From an uncultured Candidatus Altimarinota bacterium (GTDB taxonomy: Bacteria; Patescibacteriota; Gracilibacteria; CAIRYL01): a stretch of DNA of 33,312 nucleotides. Shown here piece after piece: positions 3,655 to 28,735 of the stretch (within the stretch, counting starts at the first letter, position 1; every line of letters begins with the position of its first letter). The notes beneath the pieces are model-generated. The model was not told the origin of the DNA and did no database searches. It saw nothing but the letters and a program-made list of their open reading frames with translations. The position numbers and the translations under genes were made by a program. The DNA is taken from contig CAMZKZ010000042.1 in NCBI GenBank assembly GCA_947311645.1, positions 1 through 33,312 of the forward strand. The letters are read 5' to 3'.

Positions 3655-3726
3655 ATTATTTTTTGCTAGAGTGTGTGTAAAAGAGAAAAATTTAAATTTT
3701 GAAATAGTAAATATATATTGAAGCAT

Positions 3727-5829
3727 ATGTCTGAAGAATTAAAAAATAGTGTAAAAGAAAAAGTTCAAAATAACGCTGAGAGTACAACTGAGAGTGAAAA
3801 TCACGATAAAAGAGGGGAGAAAGGGGAAGATGTGTCTAAAAATGCTGTTGTTTTAACAGAGGAAGAAAAAAAAAGATTGAAAGAAGAGGCAAAAGAAATT
3901 TTAGAAAAAAGTTCATCTGGATGTGTCTTGGAAGAGAAGCTGAAATTGAATGATAAAAATAAGAATATATATTCAAAAATAAAAAGTTTTTTTACCTTTG
4001 AACAATTTGAGTTTTTAGAGCAATCAGATAAAAAGAAAGAAGAAATTGCATTGCTTATTAAAGCGCAAAACAATCCAGATAAATTGTATTGGATGGAAAT
4101 TTTACTTTCTACTCTTATTGCAACCTTTGGTCTTTTGCAAAATTCTGTTGCGGTAATTATTGGGGCAATGCTTATTGCTCCGCTTATTCGACCGATGCAA
4201 GGAATGAGTTTTGCTATGGCAAGAGGACAGTCGCGTTTTTTTTGGAAAACAACTTCATTACTTTTTAAAAGTGTAGTTATTTCTATTATCGTATCATTTT
4301 TGTTTGCATTGTTGATTCCGCTAAAAATAGAGCAACCGGAAATATTAGCACGAACATCTCCAAATATTCTTGATTTATTTATTGCAATTTTCTCAGCAAT
4401 TATTGCGCTTCTTTCTCTTGGGTATGAACGGCTTTCTGCGAGTGTTGCTGGGGTTGCAATGGCAGCGAGTTTGATGCCACCTTTGGCGGTTGTGGGAATA
4501 GAGCTTTCTTTGGGAAATCCTATGGCAGCATGGGGAAGTTTTCTTTTATTTTTTGTCAATTTTCTCGCTATTTTATTAGTAGGGGTTGTGGTTTTGTTGG
4601 CATATGGTTTTACTCCAACACAAGAATTAAAAAAACAGGTTTCTGTACGAAAGATTTTAACATTATTAGTAATTATTTTGTTTACTTCAATTCCGTTGTA
4701 TTCTTCGCTTTCTACTATTTCTGATAAAATTGAAGTAGAAAGAGCATCAAAAGAATTACTCGAACAACTTATTCCAGAGAAAATTCAAGATGCAAAATTG
4801 AAAGGATTGAAAGTTTTAGAAGTTACAGAAGAATCAATTAAGATGGTTGGGGAATTGCAGGTTCCAGAAAATATTAAAATTTTTAATTCAACGAAAATAG
4901 CAATTATTTCAGATCTTGAATCGCATTTTAATAAAGAAGTTATTATTGATTTTGAAACAATTCGTACTGCAAATTTTAGTTCTCCAGATGTATTACATAA
5001 GCTAAAAAAAGAAATTATTGATGTGTTTACAGTATATCTTTCTGAAGTAGCACCAAATTTTACGCTCTTGCAGGTATCAGCAGAAGAAGTGGATGAAAGT
5101 GTATGGAAAATTATCGCAGTGGTAAGTGTGCCAGATGGGGAGTTTTTAACAGATGAAATACAGAAATTATTTGAACAAAAATTTGTAGAACAGTTTGATA
5201 AAAGCATAACATTTAAATGGGTTACGGTTGCGGGAAGTCCACGAAAAGAAAACACAAAACCGCTTACGACTGTGCAAATTGTGCAAGCTGATATTATGAA
5301 GCAAATTCAAGAATTTCTTTCTCGACCAGATATGAAAGGAATAAAACTTGAAAATATTGTAATAGATATTGATGTGGCTGGGGAAGATGCACGCCTTGAA
5401 AATATATATGTATCGGCACGAGTATTGTATGAGGTAGAAATGAAGGATGAATCTCCTCGGGAAAATGATGATATTAGAGATGTTTTATCGGAGTTATGGA
5501 GGGTGTCTTCTGATGTTTCAACGCAAGAAATAAAGAAGGTAAACGATGGAAAGGTGGGTTCTGATGAAAGCAGTATTCGAGAATATTTTACGGAAGATTT
5601 TGTACAAATGATGCAGTCTTTACCGTATGAGAATATCCATCTGAATCTTGAATATATTCCGTATTCGGTGCAGGTTATAGATGTATCGCAAGTAGATAAA
5701 GAAGCAGATAAAGATAAAGATAAAGAGGTGATAACTTTAAAAGAACAAGAACAAGCGGATGAGGTAGTGAATGATAAGCAGAAAGGGAGTTTGTCGTTAG
5801 GGGGTATTACTGATAGTGTAGAGCAATAG
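3727..5829 (+). CDS. DUF389 family multi-pass membrane protein with long C-terminal soluble region
   Basis: YWMEILLSTLIATFGLLQNSVAVIIGAMLIAPLIRPMQGMSFAMARG and following hydrophobic helices match the DUF389 core. ORF track start is TTG 3718; ATG 3727 is preferred. Confidence 0.85.
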   Translation: MSEELKNSVKEKVQNNAESTTESENHDKRGEKGEDVSKNAVVLTEEEKKRLKEEAKEILEKSSSGCVLEEKLKLNDKNKNIYSKIKSFFTFEQFEFLEQSDKKKEEIALLIKAQNNPDKLYWMEILLSTLIATFGLLQNSVAVIIGAMLIAPLIRPMQGMSFAMARGQSRFFWKTTSLLFKSVVISIIVSFLFALLIPLKIEQPEILARTSPNILDLFIAIFSAIIALLSLGYERLSASVAGVAMAASLMPPLAVVGIELSLGNPMAAWGSFLLFFVNFLAILLVGVVVLLAYGFTPTQELKKQVSVRKILTLLVIILFTSIPLYSSLSTISDKIEVERASKELLEQLIPEKIQDAKLKGLKVLEVTEESIKMVGELQVPENIKIFNSTKIAIISDLESHFNKEVIIDFETIRTANFSSPDVLHKLKKEIIDVFTVYLSEVAPNFTLLQVSAEEVDESVWKIIAVVSVPDGEFLTDEIQKLFEQKFVEQFDKSITFKWVTVAGSPRKENTKPLTTVQIVQADIMKQIQEFLSRPDMKGIKLENIVIDIDVAGEDARLENIYVSARVLYEVEMKDESPRENDDIRDVLSELWRVSSDVSTQEIKKVNDGKVGSDESSIREYFTEDFVQMMQSLPYENIHLNLEYIPYSVQVIDVSQVDKEADKDKDKEVITLKEQEQADEVVNDKQKGSLSLGGITDSVEQ

Positions 5830-7585: not shown

Positions 7586-8266
7586 ATGAAACACATACTT
7601 TCTTTTGTAGAGCTTGAAAAAGAATTGCAAAAAAGATTTTGTATTCCATATGAATGGGGTGGAAAAAAGCAAAATAATAGAGATGATAAAAGGAGTAATT
7701 TTATATATAAAGCTCCTTTTTTTGTATATGTGCAACACATGATAGCGAAAAATGAATGTGAAGATATTGCTTCATATACAATGAATAGGTGGTATAATTT
7801 TTGGTCAGCAAAAGCAGTAGAGTCGATTTTTACTAAAAATAATTATATTACAGCGAATAAAAATACAAAAAGTAAAACGGTTGATTTTACTTTTTATGAT
7901 ATAGAAACAAAGCAGTATATAGGTTTTGATCATAAAACTACTGTGTTGCCGAGATATTTTTGGAAAAAAATACATGATTTTTTAGAGACGAATAGTGTGA
8001 AAAATCTTCATGTATTTGATGAGGAGCTTGTTGGATGGTTGTATGAAAATCAGAGTCAGCAACAGCGAAAACATTGGAAGAATAGATTTTTTGTTGTGTT
8101 GATAGATAAGAAAAAGAATGAGCACTGGAAAATAAAATCTGAGCTTTTATTTTTGCATGAAAATATTTCTCATTATTTACAAAATTTTTCTTTGAAAAAG
8201 TGTGTGAAATTTATTCATGAGAAAAATCAAGTGTATGCATCGATAATTTGGATTGTAAAAGACTGA
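7586..8266 (+). CDS. Conserved hypothetical protein, putative PD-(D/E)XK nuclease fold
   Basis: 226 aa preceded by an SD-like aagggg. Contains NRWYNFWSAKAVESIF...KTVDFTFYDIETKQYIGFDHKTTVLP, consistent with D-Xn-DxK catalytic spacing. Family assignment is from pattern recognition only. Confidence 0.5.
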   Translation: MKHILSFVELEKELQKRFCIPYEWGGKKQNNRDDKRSNFIYKAPFFVYVQHMIAKNECEDIASYTMNRWYNFWSAKAVESIFTKNNYITANKNTKSKTVDFTFYDIETKQYIGFDHKTTVLPRYFWKKIHDFLETNSVKNLHVFDEELVGWLYENQSQQQRKHWKNRFFVVLIDKKKNEHWKIKSELLFLHENISHYLQNFSLKKCVKFIHEKNQVYASIIWIVKD

Positions 8267-18193: not shown

Positions 18194-18730
18194 ATGAATA
18201 TATATGGGAAAATAGGGTTTGTTGTATGTACGACACTTATAGGAAGTCTGTTTGGGTTTCAAAAAAGTAATTCGGAAATCAGTACGGTAAATTATGAAAC
18301 GGTTCTCTTTGCTACAGTTTTAAGTAGTGATGCGGATTCAAGTGTAGAAGAAAAAGAAGCATCGTCTCATTTTTTTTCTGAAGCAATTTTAGGTTGGACA
18401 CTTTCTCCTTATTTTAAAGAAGAGGTAGGGTTTTCATTTTCGGGAAGAAAGCAAGAAAGAGGAAATATTATTTTTGAATTTACCTCGACTACAGAAGAAA
18501 AAGCTGATGAAAAAACACAGAAATTTATTACAACTTTGGCAGATAAACTTACAAAATATAACGAAAGAGCAGTAACACAATTTGATATTTTGCTTGATCC
18601 TGCATTTACAACTGTAAAAAACCCTCATAAAAGTTTTTGGACAATGGGAGGTGGGATTGCTGGATTTTTCTTTGGATTATTTCTTGTGGAAGTGTATATC
18701 TTTCTACGACAGAAAAAAGAAAAAAAATAG
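18194..18730 (+). CDS. Small Wzz-like (chain-length determinant-like) membrane protein
   Basis: 178 aa with an N-terminal TM (IGFVVCTTLIGSLFGF), a soluble middle, and a C-terminal TM after NPHKSFWTMGGGIAGFFFGLFLVEVYIFLRQKK. The topology resembles Wzz; sequence support is weak. Confidence 0.5.
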   Translation: MNIYGKIGFVVCTTLIGSLFGFQKSNSEISTVNYETVLFATVLSSDADSSVEEKEASSHFFSEAILGWTLSPYFKEEVGFSFSGRKQERGNIIFEFTSTTEEKADEKTQKFITTLADKLTKYNERAVTQFDILLDPAFTTVKNPHKSFWTMGGGIAGFFFGLFLVEVYIFLRQKKEKK

Positions 18731-20436: not shown

Positions 20437-21030
20437 TTAGACTATATTTCCCATGATAAGAAAGAAGATAAACAATAAAAAAAGTAAGATGAGGGAGACA
20501 ATAAAAAATATACTTCTTCCACTTCGTGCTGTTTTAATATCTTCAAGAAGGAATGTTTTTTCTGCTTCTAGGGTTGCAATATTTTTTTCGAGCATTTGCT
20601 TTTCATTTTCTGCTTCAAGTACAGGAATTTTTGATTTTGATTCTGTTTCAAGTATTCCAAGTTGATAATGCATATGTCGTAACAATTCATCTTTTTTTTC
20701 AAGTTCTTGTTTTGCATCATCATATAATACTTTGTATTTATGTATTTCTTGTGCAAATTGATTCTGAAGTGCTATATCTGTGTTTGGTTCTGTGTATGGA
20801 GAGTCGTCTTCTGTATGCTTTGGTTTTGATTTCTTTCCAATTACTTGTGTTACACTTGGGTTTTTTTCATTTTTTATTACATCGAGTTCTGTAATAAGAA
20901 GGAGAACATGCCCATTTTCTCGGGTAATGGATAATTTCCCTTTGGCAACATATCTATCAAGTGTTCGAGTTGAAACACCAATATATTTTGCTGCATCAAT
21001 TCTATTTAAAAATGTGGTTTCGTCGTACAT
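20437..21030 (-). CDS. HTH (MerR/excisionase-like) - coiled coil - C-terminal TM protein
   Basis: N-terminal NRIDAAKYIGVSTRTLDRYVAKGKLSITRENGHVLLLITELDV, a charged heptad-like middle (YDDAKQELEKKDELLRHMHYQLGILETES...NEKQMLEKNIATLEAEKTFLLEDI), and a C-terminal TM SIFFIVSLILLFLLFIFFLIMGNIV. Confidence 0.7.
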   Translation of the reverse strand: MYDETTFLNRIDAAKYIGVSTRTLDRYVAKGKLSITRENGHVLLLITELDVIKNEKNPSVTQVIGKKSKPKHTEDDSPYTEPNTDIALQNQFAQEIHKYKVLYDDAKQELEKKDELLRHMHYQLGILETESKSKIPVLEAENEKQMLEKNIATLEAEKTFLLEDIKTARSGRSIFFIVSLILLFLLFIFFLIMGNIV

Positions 21031-21069: not shown

Positions 21070-22359
21070 TTAAAAAGTTTTAATTATATTTCCTACTCGT
21101 GAAGAAAAAAGAGGATGAGAAATATATTCCTCTTTTTTTGATTGAGGAACTTCCCAGCATACACCGTATTGTATAGATTTAAGAGGTATTTCTGGAAGTG
21201 TATGAGAAAGATGTTCGTGTTTTTCTTGTCCTTTAAAATCATCTTTTGCTTCTACTATAAAACAATTTTCTTCTGAGAATCGTGCTTCTGATAGAATAAA
21301 TTCATTAGTATTTGTCCAGTCGTACCATTTTCCATCGATTTTTGCGACTACCAATTGTTTATTTAAATTTACAAGTTCTCCAGAGGTAATGATTTTTGAA
21401 AGTGTTTGTATTTTTTCTTCGAGAGAAAGTGTTGCATCACAGTAAAATCCCCATTTTTCTCTTCTTTTAATATTTTCTTCATGAAGAGTATTTGCAAATG
21501 TTTTTTCTGTTTTATCTGTAATTTTTAATCGCACAAGTATCGTGAGTTCGGTTGGGTCAATTTGTTGAGGAATAATATCTGTGAAGTCCGTTACCGATAT
21601 TGTTTGGTTGTTCAATTCGGTAGTATTTTTATTTTGAAAATATTCCCAAAGCGATGCAAATACTGGGTTTCCATTTTCATTTCTTTCTGGATGAGGCATG
21701 AGTGCAACTACATTTCCTTTTGGATTACAAATTGCTGCTGCATTTTTAAAACTTCCATTTGGATTTGTTGGATAATGGTTATCTTCTTCACCTTTATCAT
21801 TTACATATGTAAATACAATAAGATTTTTTTCTGCTACCTCTTTTTCCATTTCAGGAGTAAGTGTAAATCGTCCTTCACCATGGGCAATAGGAATATGAAT
21901 ATTTTCTGAAAAATTTGAAAATGGTGTTTTTGTATTTACGGGTTTAAGTGTTCTATAAGAGTGGTAAAACCCTGTTCCAAGAATTTCTCCTTTTGCATTT
22001 GTTCGTTTGTTATCTAGTAATGCAATAGTTGGAATATTGTTAGAATCAGAAAGAATGAGCCCACTTTCTACAAGCATTTGTGCTCCATTACAAATTCCTA
22101 GAATTGGAGTATTGTTTTTTGCCATTTCTGTAAGTGTAGAAAAAATTGCTTCTTGGCTAGAGACAATACCACTTCTACCTCTGTCTTCAAAAGAAAATCC
22201 ACCAGGAAGTACAACCCCATCAAATGTTTGAAGTTCTTGTGGGTTTCTATTCCATAAAAATACTTCAGCTTGAAAACCTTGGTTTTGTAAGGCTCGTACT
22301 GTTTCTGTTTCGCAGTTATTTCCTGGAAATGTAAGTACTGCAATATTTGGTGTATTCAC
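21070..22359 (-). CDS. purQ: Phosphoribosylformylglycinamidine synthase glutaminase PurQ with an additional C-terminal domain
   Basis: GTG start. NIAVLTFPGNNCETETVRALQNQG...DGVVLPGGFSFEDRGRSGIVSSQEAIF...PILGICNGAQMLVESGLI...MPHPERNENG, then about 170 further residues that I cannot assign. Confidence 0.85.
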   Translation of the reverse strand: MNTPNIAVLTFPGNNCETETVRALQNQGFQAEVFLWNRNPQELQTFDGVVLPGGFSFEDRGRSGIVSSQEAIFSTLTEMAKNNTPILGICNGAQMLVESGLILSDSNNIPTIALLDNKRTNAKGEILGTGFYHSYRTLKPVNTKTPFSNFSENIHIPIAHGEGRFTLTPEMEKEVAEKNLIVFTYVNDKGEEDNHYPTNPNGSFKNAAAICNPKGNVVALMPHPERNENGNPVFASLWEYFQNKNTTELNNQTISVTDFTDIIPQQIDPTELTILVRLKITDKTEKTFANTLHEENIKRREKWGFYCDATLSLEEKIQTLSKIITSGELVNLNKQLVVAKIDGKWYDWTNTNEFILSEARFSEENCFIVEAKDDFKGQEKHEHLSHTLPEIPLKSIQYGVCWEVPQSKKEEYISHPLFSSRVGNIIKTF

Positions 22360-27283: not shown

Positions 27284-28735
27284 TTGTATTTACGATCTGC
27301 TCCTTCGGAGGCAGGGGATTCTTTAGAGAATCGAGCAGAGGCTATTGATGGAAAGGTTGAATCTGTAGAAGAAATTGTTAAAAACGATTTGAACGCATTA
27401 AAACAAGCAGTTAAAAAATCTATTATACCGAAGAATGCTGAATTATTTGATGCAGCATTAGAAAAAGCAAATTCACTTGATGATATTGAGAAAGCTGTAG
27501 ATGTATATGCAGAATCTGTTGAAAAAGCAATTGATCTCGCGGAGGATAGAAACAAAGCAGTTATAGATTTAATTGAAGGTGATTTATTAAGTGATTCGGA
27601 AAAACAAGAATTATATGGAACTCAAAATCCAAAGATTTCAATATTGTTTGCTGCTGCACAAGAACAAGTACAAGCATTAATTAATCTTAAAGAAAAATAT
27701 GATATTAGTGCAGATGTCTTTGATGAAGCTGATTTTGAAGATATAGTTGAAGAGGTGAAAGATGATTTAGCTGATCGAATTCATCAATCAGGAAAATATT
27801 CAGATAAATTTTTACTTACATCAGAGAGAGATAAGTTGGTCTTAGAATATCGTAATATTGAATTCGGAGAATATGATAGAAGCCCAGTGTTGCGAAATAT
27901 TGTAGCAATGAGGAAAAACTTAAATAAGTCTAAAGGAATGTTGAATAATGCTATTAATGCTTCTCTTAAATCTTCTATTGTATCTGCGAATTCTGTTAAA
28001 TTTGCTGCAATTCAGGCAGAGGTTACAGATTTATCAAATATTGTAAAAACTTTTAATCAGCAATCTGAAAAAGTAGAAGCACAGCGTTCTTCATTACGAA
28101 AAGAAATAGCACAATTAGAAAAAGTAGTTTCTGGAGCAAAAAAGAAATTATTACGTTTTGATAAATCAATTGATAGTTTGGAAAAATCTATAGGTAAAGC
28201 GGAAGATAGTGTAGATGGTGCAGAAGACAGCTATAGTGCAATAAGAAGAAAACATGGTGTATTTTGGACAATGGAAAAAAATATCAAAGAGGTTCTTGTT
28301 GAAAAAAAAGAAGATGAATTAATAGATGAAATAAAGGAAAAAGATGATAAATTTTTACTCGATAAGGAGAGAAATTTAAGAATTTTAAAACTGAGAAAGT
28401 TAAGAAGTGGGTCATTAGATCTTCCAGAAATTAAAAAAGCATTAGAGGAAATAAAACAAGCAAAACAAGCAATTATTAATTCTGAAAGAAATGTTGATCA
28501 AGGAGAGGCTCGTTTATTTGAATTAGAAGGGCAACAAAAAAGTGTTGAAGATATTATAGAAAATCTTGAAGGAGGTATATTTACCGAAGGAAAAATTGAA
28601 AAACTTAAAAAAGAATTATCGAATGTAACAGCTGAATATGAAAAAGGATTTTGGAACACTGTATCTTCATGGTTTTCAAGTCCTGATTCGACGAACACGA
28701 TTGATGATAATGAGGATGATGGTTATAATTATTAG
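27284..28735 (+). CDS. Predicted coiled-coil protein of unknown function; possible phase-variable gene
   Basis: Long, Glu/Lys-rich heptad-like ORF with no recognised domain. No in-frame ATG lies upstream; the ORF track start is TTG 27284. The frame is open back through the repeat to a TAG at 27197. Confidence 0.7.
   Translation: MYLRSAPSEAGDSLENRAEAIDGKVESVEEIVKNDLNALKQAVKKSIIPKNAELFDAALEKANSLDDIEKAVDVYAESVEKAIDLAEDRNKAVIDLIEGDLLSDSEKQELYGTQNPKISILFAAAQEQVQALINLKEKYDISADVFDEADFEDIVEEVKDDLADRIHQSGKYSDKFLLTSERDKLVLEYRNIEFGEYDRSPVLRNIVAMRKNLNKSKGMLNNAINASLKSSIVSANSVKFAAIQAEVTDLSNIVKTFNQQSEKVEAQRSSLRKEIAQLEKVVSGAKKKLLRFDKSIDSLEKSIGKAEDSVDGAEDSYSAIRRKHGVFWTMEKNIKEVLVEKKEDELIDEIKEKDDKFLLDKERNLRILKLRKLRSGSLDLPEIKKALEEIKQAKQAIINSERNVDQGEARLFELEGQQKSVEDIIENLEGGIFTEGKIEKLKKELSNVTAEYEKGFWNTVSSWFSSPDSTNTIDDNEDDGYNY

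Follow-up and report, generated by a model that had tools for sequence, protein, structure and literature searches.

PurQ fused to a putative tandem PurS domain in Gracilibacteria and across several phyla

A 429-amino-acid protein encoded in a 33,312-nucleotide stretch of DNA from an uncultured Candidatus Altimarinota bacterium (the whole stretch analysed here, hereafter ‘the window’) is very probably a subunit of a two-part FGAM synthase, in which a PurQ glutaminase carries two PurS-like units at its C-terminus (PurQ-PurSS) and partners a separate, small PurL. FGAM synthases are otherwise described as either a large single-chain PurL or a small PurL acting with PurQ and PurS, where PurS, required in B. 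subtilis, is the counterpart of the N-terminal domain of large PurL (PMC3261824). PurS forms a homodimer whose two units equal that N-terminal domain (PMC3815217), and in archaea a PurL with a fused PurS-like N-terminus (mdPurL) replaces free PurS (PMC3261824). The function of the N-terminal/PurS domain in FGAM synthase is still described as unclear (PMC3815217).

Gene layout and the PurQ core

The purQ-purSS open reading frame (21070–22359, minus strand) starts with GTG, stops with TAA and is of the same length in congeners. Its first 242 residues (21634–22359, minus strand) make up the PurQ core, supported by two family matches: residues ~4–228 match Pfam GATase_5 (PF13507, E 2e-44), and the score of 189.7 bits against the NCBIfam PurQ equivalog TIGR01737 exceeds the cut-off of 177.8. 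The Cys-His-Glu glutaminase triad is complete and invariant in an alignment of 17 fused homologues, with the nucleophile C90 at 22090–22092, H223 at 21691–21693 and E225 at 21685–21687 (all minus strand). These matches bear out the PurQ-type glutaminase core that a preliminary description had recognized from a GICNGAQML nucleophile motif and an MPHPER histidine motif, and by equivalog score and triad we assign the predicted protein to PurQ (FGAM synthase subunit I).

The core is followed by a linker (residues 243–270; 21550–21633, minus strand) that varies in length across alignments and has lower confidence in structural models, and then by a C-terminal domain. Residues 250–429 searched alone matched no Pfam or NCBIfam family and nothing worth keeping among PDB sequences, confirming the earlier observation of an unassigned ~170-amino-acid domain; weak matches to Lipin_mid, DUF5816, a U4/U6.U5 protein and a spermidine acetyltransferase were at chance level.

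The gene stands alone, separated from its upstream neighbour by what reads as a terminator-like hairpin. As the preliminary description had it, no second pur gene was noted among the open reading frames of the window; purL, purF and purM are found on different contigs of the same genome. Elsewhere in the window, the plus strand at 1–1897 encodes the terminal part of an AAA protein, by eye McrB-like, and then a McrC-type protein (PF10117, E 7e-92), likely a McrBC restriction pair interrupted by the contig end, and at 3718–5829 (plus strand) a 703-amino-acid protein has a DUF389 membrane domain with long flanks lacking family matches. A 197-amino-acid product (20437–21030, minus strand) whose N-terminus resembles MerR/HTH_17, though below Pfam cut-offs, and which has a coiled coil and a C-terminal transmembrane stretch, is possibly a membrane-anchored regulator. 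Three further plus-strand products, of 178 (18194–18730), 226 (7586–8266) and 483 amino acids (27284–28735, the last rich in coiled coil), have no match above Pfam cut-offs.

The C-terminal domain as a tandem PurS

Profile comparison, a Pfam model applied to a homologue and structural prediction, which we regard as three independent lines, identify the C-terminal domain (~160–170 amino acids) as a predicted tandem of two strongly diverged PurS units, equivalent to the PurS dimer and to the N-terminal domain of large PurL. The reference for the profile comparison was the tandem PurS at the N-terminus of PurL from other Patescibacteria (‘PurS2-PurL’, in frames of about 925–1035 amino acids), itself anchored by PDB PurS entries as its best matches. 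Using hhalign, the second half of the C-terminal domain matched the first PurS unit of this tandem (probability 92.4, E 5e-7) and the first half matched the second unit (probability 86.5, E 4.6e-6), while whole-length alignments gave E-values between 4e-4 and 6e-5. All 150 column-shuffled decoys fell short of each of the four observed scores, the best decoy probability being below 5%, and reversed profiles gave no match. The pairing of the halves is in swapped order with respect to PurS2-PurL (window 21073–21549), which counts against the assignment.

The Pfam PurS model (PF02700) came close to detecting the domain in one homologue, in genome G300, where it matched the expected stretch, the first repeat, at E 3e-4 and 21.4 bits against a cut-off of 22.2 (locus L012). 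A match at E 0.007 to the C-terminal domain of the same genome in the phylum scan was set aside as evidence by itself because PF02700 also matches GroEL and GlyA at E 0.002–0.006. The cut-off was not exceeded in any C-terminal domain tested, and that of the window has no PurS match at all. The domain is thus no formal member of PF02700, its divergence placing it below the cut-off so that the PurS relationship is revealed only by profile and fold comparison.

An AlphaFold2 model of the domain, built from a 31-sequence alignment (pLDDT 89.9, pTM 0.84), contains two beta-alpha-beta-alpha-beta units. When this model was compared with 350,542 PDB chains using Foldseek, the best 13 of 503 matches were all Salmonella FGAM synthase, with probabilities of 0.85–1.00 over 170–182 columns, or almost the entire domain. 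E-values were modest, the best being 0.008, and the TM-score to the query was about 0.48, but the next match had a probability of only 0.08, and human FGAM synthase appeared at rank 31. The full-length model of PurQ-PurSS has a pTM of 0.89, so the predicted packing of the domain is at a defined place.

Repeat a (residues 271–342; 21334–21549, minus strand), placed by hhalign, the model and the PF02700 match in the homologue, is a predicted beta-alpha-beta-alpha-beta unit with the motifs ITDN/ITDK and SGELVNLNK. It is joined to repeat b by a connecting hairpin (residues 343–360; 21280–21333, minus strand), placed by modelled strands at positions 95–99 and 105–108 of the domain and by an alignment gap, and far shorter in several homologues such as that of Legionella. 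Repeat b (residues 361–429; 21073–21279, minus strand), placed by hhalign and the model, has the same predicted topology and terminates at the site of IFxNPHS in homologues, comparable to LLANPVIE in PurS.

The preliminary description had not recognized the C-terminal part as PurS or PurL, and had named alignment to PurS as an outcome that would speak against its reading; profile and fold comparison do align the part to PurS, as two diverged copies. It could still be argued that an unrelated domain has assumed the bridging role of PurS, since the Pfam model finds nothing on the window's own domain and sequence identity is low throughout. We consider this very improbable given the decoy-controlled hhalign matches, the near-cut-off PF02700 match, the FGAM synthase matches in Foldseek and an LLxNP-like end motif common to PurS and the C-terminal domains of the homologues.

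Purine genes in the source genome and its class

Family searches of the source genome (775 kb, 87% complete, 53 contigs) found a single PurL of 786 amino acids, scoring 543.5 bits against the TIGR01736 cut-off of 525.75, which begins directly at its own core and leaves no space for PurS. A PurF match lies above and a PurM match below the respective cut-offs. PF02700 detected no PurS in this genome even at E 10, while the identical search found PurS in 12 of 14 control genomes; a PurS search of plasmids also gave no match. Looking for purL and purS elsewhere in the genome, as had been proposed at the outset, therefore yields the former and no detectable trace of the latter.

Full-length fused proteins are carried by four congeners (70–81% identity) and by a second genus of the family (~50%). 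The C-terminal domain alone proved too diverged to use as a query in the contig search across genomes. A match of the domain to a methionyl-tRNA-synthetase-like frame in a single genome (L017:1229–1693, E 3.5e-5) looks like chance. A profile of the domain matched in 134 of the 353 genomes of the class, mostly in frames of ~400–520 amino acids, and all 33 loci read out consist of PurQ followed by the domain. The fusion is no assembly accident, given its presence in congeners, a second genus and these 134 genomes.

The fusion is complementary to PurS-bearing PurL. A third genus of the same family (G002) has a plain PurQ (289-amino-acid frame) together with a 1035-amino-acid PurL that carries a tandem PurS at its N-terminus. 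In the class genomes for which a PurL frame is listed, this frame is shorter than 940 amino acids in 103 of 104 fused genomes versus 5 of 46 unfused ones, the other 41 having a long, PurS-bearing PurL; the p-value of 5e-30 is not to be taken literally, as the genomes are not phylogenetically independent. The pattern holds across many families as well as inside that of the window, and PurS2-PurL and PurQ-PurSS almost never occur together within the class. The sole long PurL among fused genomes (1090 amino acids, G529) is extended upstream by a stretch not recognizable as PurS, and the unfused genomes with short PurL frames include incomplete ones. In size, the PurQ frames of a phylum sample form three groups, plain (~200–310 amino acids), fused (~390–520, with 889 in one case) and single-chain (~1250–1390). 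All-in-one FGAM synthases of the last size occur in many Patescibacteria (G375, G240, G225, G326 and others), and the three architectures coexist in the phylum.

An incomplete genome in 53 contigs could hide a normal PurS, whose genes are short and easily overlooked (PMC3261824), and the C-terminal domain would then be an added regulatory or oligomerization domain. We give this explanation hardly any credence: fused genomes in the phylum sample, many of them 97–100% complete, have no PF02700 match besides the C-terminal domain, the fusion alternates with PurS-bearing PurL in the class, and purS is absent from the genes found in relatives' operons. The reading of the domain as PurSS accommodates the missing purS directly.

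Distribution, operons and origin

A scan of named genome records found the same PurQ fusion in Gracilibacteria, Peregrinibacteria, Peribacteria, Uhrbacteria and Magasanikbacteria, and also in Legionella (including cultured species), other Gammaproteobacteria, Neomarinimicrobiota, Opitutae/Puniceicoccaceae (Verrucomicrobiota) and Spirochaetia (Spirochaetota); the sequences of several of these were read out. The arrangement is thus not lineage-specific, as the preliminary description had supposed, but occurs in several phyla. In Legionella, Neomarinimicrobiota and Spirochaetota the fused gene is part of an operon, purL-purM-purQSS-purC-purF-purD-purN, of which Verrucomicrobiota and other Patescibacteria have abbreviated forms; PurL frames in these operons are 777–849 amino acids where measured, and no purS is among the genes found. 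In Ca. Magasanikbacteria RIFCSPHIGHO2_01_FULL_33_34 (L015:7–2673, minus strand; the same record as L141), a single 889-amino-acid frame reads PurQ-PurSS-PurC-PurE, a four-domain purine enzyme, with domains beyond PurQ named by eye and PurC also by tblastn. A 923-amino-acid frame (L198), considered as an extra N-terminal fusion, owes its length merely to a GC-rich stretch that stays open ahead of the ATG.

This gene context bears on whether the protein might be a repurposed glutaminase, its PurQ core supplying ammonia to another enzyme and its C-terminal domain serving as a new targeting domain. In favour of this are the versatility of the PurQ-like glutaminase fold and the position of the gene in the window, not next to purL. 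Yet the protein is the sole PurQ in a genome with PurL, PurF and PurM and scores above the PurQ equivalog cut-off, PurL is present in 123 of the 134 fused class genomes, and in other phyla the fused gene sits inside purL-purM-...-purN operons, all of which makes repurposing most improbable. The preliminary description had left the choice between an FGAM synthase arrangement and such repurposing; our analysis bears out the former and speaks against the latter.

In a tree of 115 PurQ cores, all fused proteins fall on one side of a branch with SH-aLRT support of 100, and the Legionella and Neomarinimicrobiota sequences nest among Patescibacteria-type sequences. The separating branch is long, and the unfused set consists of 11 proteins, all from Patescibacteria. 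The phylogeny of the core, suggested earlier as a check, thus sets the fused proteins apart from an unfused sample of this narrow range, and suggests a single origin of the fused PurQ.

Relation to known FGAM synthases and proposed mechanism

By analogy with characterized FGAM synthases, the N-terminal PurQ glutaminase would release ammonia from glutamine, and the C-terminal PurSS would stand in for the separate PurS homodimer and dock PurQ onto the small PurL, to whose FGAR/ATP site the ammonia would pass. The predicted enzyme would be a two-chain complex of PurL and PurQ-PurSS, as opposed to the usual PurL, PurQ and two PurS; we infer complex formation, stoichiometry and ammonia channelling from those characterized enzymes. 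In large PurL, the surface that the N-terminal domain buries amounts to 1033 A2 at the synthetase and 1919 A2 at the glutaminase domain (PMC3815217), and because of the latter contact the tethering of PurSS to PurQ appears sterically natural.

The arrangement shares features with each known form. Like the three-subunit PurL/PurQ/PurS enzyme (B. subtilis, T. maritima; PDB 3D54; TIGR01736/TIGR01737, PF02700), it has a small PurL, the same PurQ catalytic residues and an expected two PurS units per complex; here, however, both units form one predicted tandem domain on the PurQ C-terminus and free PurS was not found. In large single-chain FGAM synthases (E. coli/Salmonella PurL, PDB 1T3T and mutants, TIGR01735; clostridial TIGR01857), structures of which are the best fold matches of the C-terminal domain, the PurS-dimer-like domain is also covalently attached, but it lies N-terminal to PurL with PurQ C-terminal, whereas in the present case PurL is a chain of its own and PurQ precedes the PurS part. 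Archaeal mdPurL (PMC3261824) and the PurS2-PurL of Patescibacteria (G002, G033, G277) likewise have a doubled PurS fused to another subunit, that subunit being PurL rather than PurQ. PurQ-PurSS is therefore a further way of wiring the PurL, PurQ and PurS parts, and its chemistry is not new. Neither the searchable literature (subscription papers lying outside it) nor the family libraries searched yielded a description of the fusion, and the family models run label the fused proteins merely as PurQ.

A broader proposal, which we hold with as much doubt as confidence, is that PurL with PurQ-PurSS is a widespread, undescribed FGAM synthase architecture of several phyla, with a PurQ partner of apparently single origin that spread partly by operon transfer, and that its two chains make up an enzyme of fixed 1:1 composition, for which the ligand-dependent assembly of the three-subunit form may have become dispensable.

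The fusion accounts for an apparent PurS gap in purine synthesis, both in genomes of the Gracilibacteria/Peregrinibacteria type and in operons of the Legionella type, and corrects the annotation of proteins named simply PurQ. As a natural covalent module, PurQ-PurSS would also offer a means to probe the role of PurS in FGAM synthase.
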